A stretch of DNA of 64,000 nt, from the NCBI GenBank assembly GCA_001771815.1, contig MEPU01000002.1:1-64000 (forward strand), read 5' to 3'. This stretch comes from Bdellovibrionales bacterium RIFCSPHIGHO2_01_FULL_40_29. GTDB lineage: Bacteria > Bdellovibrionota > Bdellovibrionia > Bdellovibrionales > Bdellovibrionaceae. The position numbers and the translations under genes are program-made. Positions 56,344 to 60,540 of this stretch are shown here, one piece after another. The notes below the pieces were generated by a model. It did no database searches. It was not told where the DNA came from and worked only from the letters and a program-made list of their open reading frames with translations. Numbering within the stretch: position 1 is the stretch's first letter; every line of letters begins with the position of its first letter.

Positions 56344-56736
56344 ATGAATTTATTTTTAATCCGGATATTCGCAGTTGTTGGATTTTTTTTCGTTATGGCC
56401 TGCTCAAATATCCCTTGTAAAATTGAAGACCGACCTGCTCCACAAACCACAGGAGATCAGAAATCAATGACAGCACCTAAGGATTTAACATCTCGCACGC
56501 GTGTTTACAAAGCTGACGGATCATTACAGTGTGGGCAGGGGAAAAAAGTGGACCTTTCAACCATGCAAAAAGAATTGGGTGATATCCAAATATTCTCTGC
56601 AGAAAATAAGAATGATGGTCTGATGAGAATCCAAGTCTGCGGTCACCCTACAGGAAACTGCAACGTTTACGAGATCTTAGAGGCCGATCTTGATAAGGCT
56701 CTTAAGCTGGGATTTAAAAAATGGATTCGCGACTAG
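56344..56736 (+). CDS. Small lipoprotein, unknown
   Basis: 130 aa. Lipobox VMACSN (Cys about 20), a Pro/Thr linker (about 28-45), then a Cys-containing domain (SLQCGQG, IQVCGHPTGNCNVYEI). It follows bamB by 19 nt with an AGAGGAG-like site, so it may be made with the Bam lipoprotein. No family recognised. C terminus GFKKWIRD. Confidence 0.65.
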   Translation: MNLFLIRIFAVVGFFFVMACSNIPCKIEDRPAPQTTGDQKSMTAPKDLTSRTRVYKADGSLQCGQGKKVDLSTMQKELGDIQIFSAENKNDGLMRIQVCGHPTGNCNVYEILEADLDKALKLGFKKWIRD

Positions 56737-57019: not shown

Positions 57020-57910
57020 TTATTTGATTTCAATCAAGTAAGCCCCTGCTGATTCTTTTGGTCGAATATCCAAGTACTTTCCTGTTGTTGATATAGACTC
57101 ATGACCCAGTGTTTTTTGCACGACATGAATGGGAGCGCCAGCTTCTATAGAATGAGTGGCGCAGGTGTGCCTCAACCAATGCGGAGAAGGTTCAACAGAG
57201 ACTTTTGCCACTTTCGCGGCCCGCCGAACAATTCTAAAAATCTGACTTGGATTTAAGGGTTTTTCGATCTGACCTGCTTTCGGTCGGGTGGATGTAAATA
57301 AGTAATCACTCGAAAGATCAACTATAAAATCAAAAAGATCCCGCGCCAAGTGGGCGGGGAGATGAATGGACCGGACTTTCTTCCCCTTACCTTCTACTAA
57401 AAGATAAAAACTTTCCTCGCTTCCGCGCTGTATGCTGGATTGACGCAATTTGCAAATCTCATCCACTCGAACACCTGTAAAGTATAGGACCTTCAGAATC
57501 AGTTTATTCCGTGCGTGAGATTCTTTTAAAATCATCTGCTCTATTTGTTCCCGTGAAAGGACCTTCGAATACAATCGATCCGGAGTCTTAATGGTTTCAA
57601 GTAAAACCGCTGGATTTCTTTCGATATATCCCGACTTATGCACAAACGAAAATAATGAAGACAATGCATTTTTATACGTATTGCGAGTGGAATCCGAATG
57701 CTCTCCAAAAGTTTTAATAAAAAGCGCCAGGTGAGTGACCTGAGTCGTTTTTAAATACAGCTGAGGATAGAAATTGAAAAACTCTTTAACTATACGTCTG
57801 TAATACCTTTGAGTTTTCGCTGATTTTTGAAATAACCATGAGCCGATGATCGCAAGATCCTCTAAATTTCGCCCAGGAATGACTTCTAAACTGTGATTCT
57901 GATTTGACAT
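57020..57910 (-). CDS. Orphan tyrosine recombinase (phage-integrase family)
   Basis: 296 aa from ATG 57910. An N-terminal SAM-like core-binding domain (about 10-95) is followed by the catalytic domain: Arg in TGVRVDEICKL (about 151), HWLRHTCATHSI (HxxR), GHESISTTGKYL (His and Tyr nucleophile). All six recombinase residues appear present. It is not obviously XerC or XerD and stands alone beside an HTH gene. A GCTTAT-GAT-ATAAGC palindrome (57914-57928) and a direct TAAGCAC repeat lie directly upstream of its start. Confidence 0.85.
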   Translation of the reverse strand: MSNQNHSLEVIPGRNLEDLAIIGSWLFQKSAKTQRYYRRIVKEFFNFYPQLYLKTTQVTHLALFIKTFGEHSDSTRNTYKNALSSLFSFVHKSGYIERNPAVLLETIKTPDRLYSKVLSREQIEQMILKESHARNKLILKVLYFTGVRVDEICKLRQSSIQRGSEESFYLLVEGKGKKVRSIHLPAHLARDLFDFIVDLSSDYLFTSTRPKAGQIEKPLNPSQIFRIVRRAAKVAKVSVEPSPHWLRHTCATHSIEAGAPIHVVQKTLGHESISTTGKYLDIRPKESAGAYLIEIK

Positions 57911-57913
57911 ACA

Positions 57914-57928
57914 GCTTATGATATAAGC
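57914..57928. promoter_or_regulatory. Palindrome before the integrase gene
   Basis: GCTTAT, GAT, ATAAGC: a perfect six-base inverted repeat whose arms flank three bases, immediately upstream of the integrase start. TAAGCAC recurs at 57924-57930 and 57940-57946. Possible operator for integrase control; not tested. Confidence 0.35.
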
Positions 57929-58001
57929 ACACCTAATTCTAAGCACGAATACTAAACTAATCATGCGTACATAAACTAGACCTTGGTCCGATAGTAAAAT
58001 G

Positions 58002-58020
58002 TGGCAGATTTGGCAGAATT
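58002..58020 (+). repeat. Tandem TGGCAGA(A)TT repeat before the HTH gene
   Basis: TGGCAGATT then TGGCAGAATT, adjacent copies ending six bases before the HTH gene ATG. No Shine-Dalgarno sequence is seen between. Such tandem half sites could be an autoregulatory operator. Confidence 0.35.
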
Positions 58021-58026
58021 TGAACT

Positions 58027-58479
58027 ATGAAAAAATCTCTCAGTCCGTTTGATTATCCGATCGTTATCCGCAAAAACATGAATTTTTTAACGATCAGCGT
58101 TCCAGACCTCAATATCATCATGACGGAAGAAATTCCTCTGACGAACAAACTAGAGAAAAACTTCTTAATTAAGATTGCTAAAAACGTAGGAATGGCTTGG
58201 GTCAAGGTTTCCCACCAGATTTATCGAAAGCAAACCAAGCAACGAACACCCTCAAAAACCAAAGATATTTTATCGCCACGTTTCAGGTCAAAACCGATCA
58301 AAATTGCGCAGGCGGCGAAGATCATTGGAGTCTCTGAAAATACACTTCGCCGTATGGTCAAACGGGGTGATATTTCATGCGTAAAAACTGGTAAAGGTCA
58401 TCGGCGATTTACCGAAAATAGCCTTAAAAAGTGGCTTGAAACCAGCCAAGTGACGACGACTTTAAATACTTCAAAATAA
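58027..58479 (+). CDS. HTH DNA-binding protein, excisionase/MerR-like C domain
   Basis: 150 aa. The C-terminal domain (about 95-145) is a winged HTH of the excisionase/MerR-like type: KIAQAAKIIGVSENTLRRMVKRGDISCVKTGKGHRRF. The N-terminal 60 residues (FDYPIVIRKNMNFLTISVPDLNII) resemble the HicB fold of antitoxin proteins, though only by eye. It diverges from the integrase gene over a 116-bp gap, so it could be an excision factor or regulator of it. Confidence 0.7.
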   Translation: MKKSLSPFDYPIVIRKNMNFLTISVPDLNIIMTEEIPLTNKLEKNFLIKIAKNVGMAWVKVSHQIYRKQTKQRTPSKTKDILSPRFRSKPIKIAQAAKIIGVSENTLRRMVKRGDISCVKTGKGHRRFTENSLKKWLETSQVTTTLNTSK

Positions 58480-58555: not shown

Positions 58556-59131
58556 ATGAAATCAATTCTAGCAGTTTTTGTTCTTTTGTTTTCAGTTGTT
58601 ACTTTAGCAGGTCTTGAAGCTGATTTTGAAACCATTAAAAATTGGGGACGAAGCCAAGAAGCCACTGGAACAATATGCGAAGATATTGCTCAATTGCGTT
58701 TCATGGAAAAGTATCCAGCACCCGAATACACTGTTTTAACTGGAATTTCGTACAGTGATAAAGATCGCACCCTCGGTGAATTGGATGTGATTGTTTTTAA
58801 TAATTCAAACCATGTTGCCGAAATCGTTGCCGAGGTTAAATGCTGGAAAAGCCCAAAAAGTGGCTTACATAAAGCTCATGATCAGCGAAAACGATTCCTC
58901 AAAAATGTTCATTCCAGTAAAGCTTTAAAATTCACCTGGCTTCAGGATCCAAAAGTAAAGCTCACTAAAACTCAGTTCAACAAAGTTCAAGAGTTTATGT
59001 CCGTGGCTCAAAGCGGAACTCAAAAAGATGGCTTTGATTACGAATTGCCTTATACATTGAAAGAGCTGATGCAATTACGGATGGATATCCTAAAATGCCA
59101 GGATTCAGGTGCTTGTAAAAAGCCAGAATAA
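58556..59131 (+). CDS. Secreted PD-(D/E)XK-like nuclease, predicted
   Basis: 191 aa with signal peptide (MKSILAVFVLLFSVVTLAG). The core GELDVIVF (Asp77) followed by VAEVKCW (Glu93-x-Lys95) and an N-terminal Glu in an amphipathic helix (ICEDIAQLRF, Glu42) matches the alpha-beta-beta-beta order of PD-(D/E)XK nucleases such as the YraN type. Secreted, so if active it would work on DNA or RNA outside the cytoplasm. This is inference; no known family was recognised. Confidence 0.6.
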   Translation: MKSILAVFVLLFSVVTLAGLEADFETIKNWGRSQEATGTICEDIAQLRFMEKYPAPEYTVLTGISYSDKDRTLGELDVIVFNNSNHVAEIVAEVKCWKSPKSGLHKAHDQRKRFLKNVHSSKALKFTWLQDPKVKLTKTQFNKVQEFMSVAQSGTQKDGFDYELPYTLKELMQLRMDILKCQDSGACKKPE

Positions 59132-59253: not shown

Positions 59254-59772
59254 ATGACCCAAGGGACATTGCTAATTGTTGAAGATGAATTTGATCTTCT
59301 GGAAATTCTTGTAGAAATGCTGTCGCCGGTTTGTGGTAAAATCTTAACAACTTCAAACGGTAAAGAAGCTTTAGATGTTTTATCCGGCACTGAAAAAATC
59401 CATGCTGTGTTATCTGACATAAATATGCCACTAATGACTGGTTTTCAATTGCTTGCCCAGGTTCGTGAATCAGGAAGCATTATTCCTTTTGTGACATTAA
59501 CAGCCTATGCCGACCAAGAAAATATGCGCGAATCCATTCGACTAAATGCCACTGATTTTTTAACAAAACCTTTTGATCGCAAAGAACTTGCCGATGTGAT
59601 TGGAAAGGCTCTTCGCCAGGGCATAAATTTAGATGAAATTCAGCAGGAAATGCAAACTCGGGCACAGGATTTAAAGATTACCAGTGAATTTTTGGAATAT
59701 TACCAAACCTATCAAAAGAAAATTATGGGCATCCGCATTGAAAATTCTAAATATATAAAACAGCGCTCTTAA
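59254..59772 (+). CDS. Response regulator, receiver domain only
   Basis: 172 aa. The receiver domain (about 3-120) has the acid pair VEDEFD (Asp), phosphoacceptor Asp in VLSDINMP (about 54), Thr in LTAYAD (about 82) and Lys in TKPFD (about 105). The tail (about 125-172) is a helical coil (LDEIQQEMQTRAQDLKITSEFLEYYQ) with no DNA-binding or enzymatic domain. No kinase neighbours it. It could be a CheY-type effector or a phospho-relay part. Confidence 0.85.
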   Translation: MTQGTLLIVEDEFDLLEILVEMLSPVCGKILTTSNGKEALDVLSGTEKIHAVLSDINMPLMTGFQLLAQVRESGSIIPFVTLTAYADQENMRESIRLNATDFLTKPFDRKELADVIGKALRQGINLDEIQQEMQTRAQDLKITSEFLEYYQTYQKKIMGIRIENSKYIKQRS

Positions 59773-59826
59773 AAGATCTGGCACCCCTGTTTTATTTCAA
59801 GTTAGTATAGAGACATGAAGGATTTT

Positions 59827-60540
59827 ATGAAAATACCAAAAGCCTCGTTGATCTTAGCGTCACTCATTTTTTCACTTTTTACAGCAACACCCGTCTGGGC
59901 TGATTTCACCCGAGAAAAGTGTGCTGAAACATTGGTGGGTAATAAAATTATTCAAGTGAATCGCCAGTGGAATGAAAAAACACGACGTTGTTTTATTTCC
60001 GTACATCCCCGAGTCATCGAGGATTTAAAGTATCGAGATTATTATTTCGATAACTCAGGATTTTTTATGGTTTTCAATTCCTATGGAATTGGAGATGAAT
60101 CCGTAACAGCTGGAGCTCGTGGTTTTTTTTTACTTCCCCAAGTGAACGAGTATCCAGATTTTTCTTTTGAAGAGAATAACGATGTGATTGTCAAAATGGT
60201 TTCCGGTCACCAACTTCGCATTTCAGGCAAAGATTTCTCAATTGTCAGTTTATCAGATGGATTAATCACTGAAAAACCTCTATCACCTAAAAACCAGGGC
60301 GGTGTCGAATTTCAACTGACTCGCGGATACTGGCTGGATGGGGGATTTAAATTAGGAGGTCTCCCGTTGGACACCTCAACCAATAAGACTCGATTCCAAT
60401 CCGCACAATCCACAGAATCTTGCATACTGACGAATAAAACCTATTTAAATTACGAATCAGATGGTGAGTTTTCCTTGAAATTTTTAGGCACTAAAATGAC
60501 AGATTTTGTGAGGGCGAAATGCCCTCAGTTAAAATTGTAA
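59827..60540 (+). CDS. Secreted protein, unknown
   Basis: 237 aa from ATG 59827; an ATG at 59815 would add MKDF and lacks a better ribosome site. Signal peptide ends TPVWA. The mature protein is beta-rich with one Cys pair near the ends (FTREKCAETL, RRCFISVH and a terminal ARKCPQLKL-like end FVRAKCPQ). No family recognised. Convergent with the M28 gene, seven nt apart. Confidence 0.6.
   Translation: MKIPKASLILASLIFSLFTATPVWADFTREKCAETLVGNKIIQVNRQWNEKTRRCFISVHPRVIEDLKYRDYYFDNSGFFMVFNSYGIGDESVTAGARGFFLLPQVNEYPDFSFEENNDVIVKMVSGHQLRISGKDFSIVSLSDGLITEKPLSPKNQGGVEFQLTRGYWLDGGFKLGGLPLDTSTNKTRFQSAQSTESCILTNKTYLNYESDGEFSLKFLGTKMTDFVRAKCPQLKL

Follow-up and report, generated by a model that had tools for sequence, protein, structure and literature searches.

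We describe a gene of Bdellovibrionales bacterium RIFCSPHIGHO2_01_FULL_40_29 whose product is probably a Sec-exported, metal-dependent PD-(D/E)XK nuclease that breaks down extracellular, chiefly prey, nucleic acid. The gene occupies positions 58556..59131 on the forward strand of the window, by which we mean the whole 64,000-nucleotide stretch analysed (contig MEPU01000002.1, positions 1 to 64,000), and runs from an ATG start to a TAA stop, specifying 191 residues. Homologues match this product in length and share 28–62% identity with it over essentially its full length. Because such full-length homologues are present in tens of Bdellovibrionota genomes, the open reading frame is, judged by comparison, a genuine conserved gene. 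An earlier note made from the DNA sequence had proposed a secreted nuclease of this fold and placed it in no recognised family, and the protein indeed has no Pfam match above the curated cut-off and no significant match in PHROGs or NCBIfam. The family and a permuted sister group described below are new, while the PD-(D/E)XK superfamily itself is well known.

Conserved motifs and predicted fold

By alignment, the family carries the complete PD-(D/E)XK motif I-II-III-IV set as described in PMC1913061. Motif I is the glutamate E42, adjacent to C41 (58676..58681, forward strand, as are all protein features given here), motif II the aspartate D77 of the sequence GELD on the second core strand (58784..58786), motif III the residues E93-V94-K95 followed by C96 on the third core strand (58832..58843), and motif IV the residues K106, Q110, R111, R113 and F114 on the second core helix (58871..58897). 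The earlier note had placed E42 on a helix, D77 in GELDVIVF, and E93 and K95 in AEVKCW; these assignments agree with the alignment, in which the two motifs span residues 74–81 and 92–97, respectively. It had also regarded a loss of D77, E93 or K95 among homologues as telling against a nuclease, and all three residues are invariant in 37/37 aligned members and in 28/28 sequences fetched by a separate scan that overlaps the first set, as are C41, E42 and Q110. Over the 37 sequences, the invariant columns comprise G38, C41, E42, Y66, G74, E75, L76, D77, E93, V94, K95, C96, K106, Q110, F141, G154, G159, C181 and C187, with R111, R113 and F114 conserved in at least 90%.

An AlphaFold2 model built from the 28-sequence alignment has a predicted local distance difference test (pLDDT) score of 93 and a predicted template modelling (pTM) score of 0.86. 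It consists of a first core helix (residues 39–52) that contains E42, three strands (58–67, 72–82 and 87–95), a second helix (100–118), two further strands (125–128 and 146–151) and a last helix (168–183), and the motif residues E42, D77, E93, K95 and Q110 fall on the expected core elements. A C-terminal module, delimited at residues 123–187 (58922..59116) from the alignment, the model and the comparison with the sister group, holds the fourth core strand (146–151), a GFD.EL motif, the last helix and the cysteines C181 and C187. Restriction and CRISPR-associated nucleases rank first in a Foldseek search of the PDB with this model, at expectation (E) values no better than 2e-3. Re-ranking with VIA-align places HamA first (8zue, Z 7.2 over 164 residues), followed by XisH (2okf, 7.1, and 2inb, 7.0) and Card1 (6wxw, 6.4), and by our reading of the entries the best 50 rows, with Z of 5.0–7.2, are all PD-(D/E)XK or related endonuclease domains. 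At the sequence level, the PADLOC PD_DExK profile PDLC01495, which describes CRISPR-associated proteins, is the only profile to match the window protein (P0001) below 1e-3 (7e-4), and it matches 24/37 family members, at best 4.8e-6. Taken together, the invariant motifs, the model, the structural matches and the profile match bear out the fold proposed in the earlier note, which the protein almost certainly adopts. No credible relative with a solved structure was found by sequence search.

Weak Pfam matches of the window protein include NERD and DUF6602, and sub-threshold Pfam and NCBIfam matches across the family include DUF6602, NERD, HSDR_N_2, HamA and, as the earlier note had suspected, YraN. 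Membership in YraN/UPF0102 (PF02021) is nevertheless not indicated: the Pfam UPF0102 model matches 2/37 members (best 0.0018), the NCBIfam YraN models reach E values of 0.0057 or weaker among members, and the window protein has no YraN match at E 5. Three further features set the family apart from YraN and Hjc-like small nucleases: a signal for Sec export, the invariance of four cysteines, and a GFD.EL...CQ..G.C module at the C-terminus. The best structural match is HamA (DUF1837), a component of the Hachiman defence system, and the weak sequence matches to it (best members 0.023 for Pfam HamA and 0.0032 for PADLOC HamA) likewise fall short of membership and point to similarity of fold only. 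HamA works intracellularly, together with a helicase, HamB, whereas the window protein carries an export signal and has no helicase partner.

Nucleases with differing substrates, Card1 and Can2 among them, appear in the structural list, which raises the question of whether the exported enzyme is an RNase or a structure-specific nuclease, with prey RNA or branched nucleic acid as its substrate and not bulk DNA. DNA is the substrate of most superfamily members, and no feature of the sequence suggests RNA. Predators do recycle prey RNA as well (PMC3593177), but we consider this substrate range improbable and favour the reading given at the outset, the breakdown of extracellular, chiefly prey, nucleic acid.

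Export and the extracellular setting

The first 18 residues (MKSILAVFVLLFSVVTLA; 58556..58609) have the appearance of a Sec-type signal peptide with a basic n-region, a hydrophobic stretch and small residues at positions -3 and -1. By eye, cleavage is predicted after A18 and before G19 (...SVVTLA/GLEAD); the signal peptide described in the earlier note is thus present, with a length of 18 residues fitting better than the 19 originally given. An export-type N-terminus, scored by a simple rule as a hydrophobic stretch with a possible cleavage site, is found in 54/54 family members tested, and signal peptides throughout the family support Sec export as read from sequence. The four cysteines invariant in the window family (C41, C96, C181 and C187) and the two invariant in the sister group would also fit an oxidising compartment, in which they may form disulfides.

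The earlier note considered an exported nuclease of this fold unusual. This holds for a free-standing Sec substrate and does not hold for the fold as such, since PD-(D/E)XK domains occur outside cells as toxin domains of polymorphic toxins and type VI secretion system effectors. By that precedent, the protein could be an antibacterial toxin that is secreted and paired with an immunity protein. The window protein, however, is a single domain behind a Sec signal with no delivery domain, and the 37 neighbourhoods contain no conserved small partner gene, recurrence of adjacent families being confined to orthologous groups with housekeeping neighbours. A toxin is therefore very unlikely, and a degradative exported nuclease remains the reading that we pursue.

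Within this reading, the signal peptide would direct export from the cytoplasm and be removed after A18. The mature domain of ~173 residues would then fold in an oxidising compartment, probably with disulfides formed by the four invariant cysteines. E42, D77 and E93 would be the ligands of Mg2+ or Mn2+, K95 would orient the water for attack, and the second core helix would hold the phosphate backbone through K106, Q110, R111 and R113. The C-terminal module would contribute the fourth strand of the sheet and a helix that caps the domain. The enzyme may finally reside in the periplasm, the prey or the medium, where it would most likely break down nucleic acid that, for a predator, would come chiefly from prey.

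Distribution of the family

All members found belong to the Bdellovibrionota. A first scan of genome contigs with the single protein as query gave no match; an alignment-based scan of an 84,980-species collection, which relies on specific peptide patterns such that distant relatives elsewhere could escape, recovered 27 loci. For 26 of these 27, the titles name Bdellovibrio, other Bdellovibrionales or Bdellovibrionaceae, Pseudobdellovibrionaceae, Oligoflexia, Bacteriovoracaceae, Bacteriovoracales or Halobacteriovoraceae. Family matches are carried by 44/148 relatives at an E value of 0.01 and by 75/369 genomes of the phylum at 0.001, the latter count including the core-only sister group. No relative turned up among phage records, plasmid records or viral contigs. 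The source genome has one copy, and copy number is highest in a Bdellovibrio-like genus (g6), most genomes of which have 1–4 copies. In a tree of the family, the window protein clusters with the copies of genomes G008 and G002 (100/93) and then with that of G010 (97/82). Some copies appear to be decaying: besides its intact copy, G010 has short, remnant-like partial matches (L050 at G010:C32 and L143 at G010:C108:48669-48797), and a copy of the window protein's own group in another genome (L137, G162:C9:60942-61193) is split into two short frames with a stop.

A circularly permuted sister group

Core-only matches, mostly from other families of the phylum, define a second group of predicted exported proteins (group B, as opposed to group A, which includes the window protein) with open frames of ~206–331 residues, at loci L031-L038, L105-L124 and L136. 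Both groups are present in two genomes (G349 and G355). Their cores are homologous (hhalign probability 99.2, E 8e-20), and equivalents of E42, D77, E93, K95 and Q110 are found in 29/29 group B proteins, together with two invariant cysteines. When the C-terminal module of group A is aligned to the stretch ahead of the core in group B, the score is 36.9; the highest score among 200 column shuffles is 17.1, and the same module aligned to the group B core itself scores 12.0. Reciprocal searches with module profiles locate the module after the core in group A and before it in 27/29 group B proteins, with no match in the remaining two; many of these matches are individually weak, with shuffled sequences reaching at most 0.5 bits. 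On these alignments, group B is a circular permutation of the group A domain, with a homologous core and module in opposite order.

Retention of the active site across this rearrangement bears on whether the protein cleaves nucleic acid at all. Inactive members of the superfamily exist, and the window protein could in principle be a catalytically dead member with a nucleic-acid binding or structural function; however, two groups that have diverged deeply both keep motifs I-II-III-IV, in 37/37 and 29/29 sequences, and we regard loss of catalysis as extremely unlikely. The protein is, very probably, an active exported nuclease. Group B is of interest in its own right: it is a naturally permuted nuclease fold whose active site is unchanged, and as such a useful subject for work on how the fold tolerates rearrangement.

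Genomic context

Upstream of the gene lie a tyrosine recombinase gene on the reverse strand (57020-57964) and an excisionase-like helix-turn-helix (HTH) gene on the forward strand (58027-58479), and downstream a receiver-domain gene (59254-59772). The recombinase and HTH pair (57020-58479) recurs near the same flanks in four other genomes (G010, G003, G007 and G013) with differing cargo, and the interval from a BamB-like gene to a peptidase gene resembles a variable region of the genus. Since same-genus relatives have different cargo in this interval and the nuclease of G002, G008 and G010 is located away from it, the gene is not tied to its neighbourhood in the window. Carriage by a mobile element or phage was considered and rejected, as relatives within the genus keep the recombinase and HTH pair near the same conserved flanks without the nuclease and no phage, plasmid or viral relative is known from the searches above; no transfer RNA gene lies near the nuclease. 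A conserved operon partner was likewise rejected, because no adjacent family recurs in the 37 neighbourhoods outside close orthologues. No promoter-like site was found on the strand of the gene, which says little. Two predicted exported proteins without a Pfam match are encoded nearby; several genomes of the genus have the first (59815-60540) next to the peptidase gene, and the second (56344-56736) recurs next to the BamB-like gene.

Relation to known Bdellovibrio nucleases and inferred role

Lambert and Sockett listed 20 nucleases for Bdellovibrio bacteriovorus HD100, the exported ones being of the Endonuclease_1 and SNase types (PMC3593177). The window family is unrelated to these proteins, Bd0934, Bd1244 and Bd3507 (Endonuclease_1) and Bd1431 and Bd1934 (SNase), although they are likewise exported or predicted to be so, and neither the window protein nor A1 has an Endonuclease_1 (PF04231) or SNase profile match. 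Loss of both bd1244 and bd1934 does not abolish the degradation of prey DNA (PMC3593177). A bd0934 bd3507 double deletion leaves predation normal and raises extracellular deoxyribonuclease (DNase) activity, and its authors allow for an extracellular nuclease as yet unidentified (PMC7925074). Because both double mutants keep predation or prey-DNA degradation, the known exported HD100 nucleases are not enough to explain the loss of prey DNA. No exported Bdellovibrio protein of the PD-(D/E)XK type was found in the literature consulted, which did not extend to the supplementary bdelloplast secretome and time-course proteome lists; COG4636 (PMC551604) was set aside, since neither secretion nor signal peptides are mentioned in that source.

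One genome in our set (G045) appears to be HD100 or nearly so, and contains the published bd1244 primer sites (PMC3593177) at 1179546 and 1179635. It has three copies of the family, at 1214197, 1489176 and 2070045. The first lies ~32 called open reading frames beyond bd1244, the second ~19 kb beyond nusA, which is Bd1546 (PMC2797640), and hence beyond bd1501, and the third near Bd2145 by interpolation. Judged by position and family, none of the three corresponds to an entry of the published 20-nuclease list. A function in prey-DNA degradation would plausibly fit the published gap in known Bdellovibrio nucleases.

Several observations weigh against the proposed exported nuclease and its role. 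The gene is present in only 4/14 genomes of the genus of the window and is therefore not essential for the lifestyle of that genus, and redundancy of nucleases in the source genome is likely because it also has an Endonuclease_1 gene elsewhere (G000:C7:187609). The export rule is a crude score, a similar version of which is passed by 157/398 neighbouring genes (39%). The Foldseek search gave no PDB match below 1e-3, and all structural Z values are below 8, a range in which the tool warns of common arrangements; Z values of this size would be weak by themselves, and the fold assignment is firm because the structural list is uniform and the motifs are complete. Finally, no biochemical or expression data were found for any member.

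The patchy occurrence within the genus would also suit an exported nuclease acting on the cell's own surroundings, for instance in trimming biofilm DNA, scavenging nucleotides or blocking the uptake of foreign DNA, with no specific role against prey. In the same direction, the phenotype of the bd1244 bd1934 double mutant is seen in biofilms and not in predation (PMC3593177). Against it, copy number peaks in the Bdellovibrio-like genus, no link between the family and genes for biofilms or uptake was found, and conservation of the neighbourhoods ends with close orthologues; we judge a function of this kind rather unlikely. On balance we lean towards a role in the digestion of prey nucleic acid, and the family, which the published HD100 list lacks, offers candidates for the enzymes behind the digestion of prey DNA.

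More tentatively, the Bdellovibrionota may possess a dedicated exported family of the PD-(D/E)XK type with two circularly permuted topologies, multi-copy in Bdellovibrio, and this family may be the source of the extracellular DNase persisting after deletion of the known exported nucleases. For the question of how periplasmic predators destroy the DNA of their prey, the family provides a short list of conserved, previously unlisted genes, three of them in an HD100-like genome.
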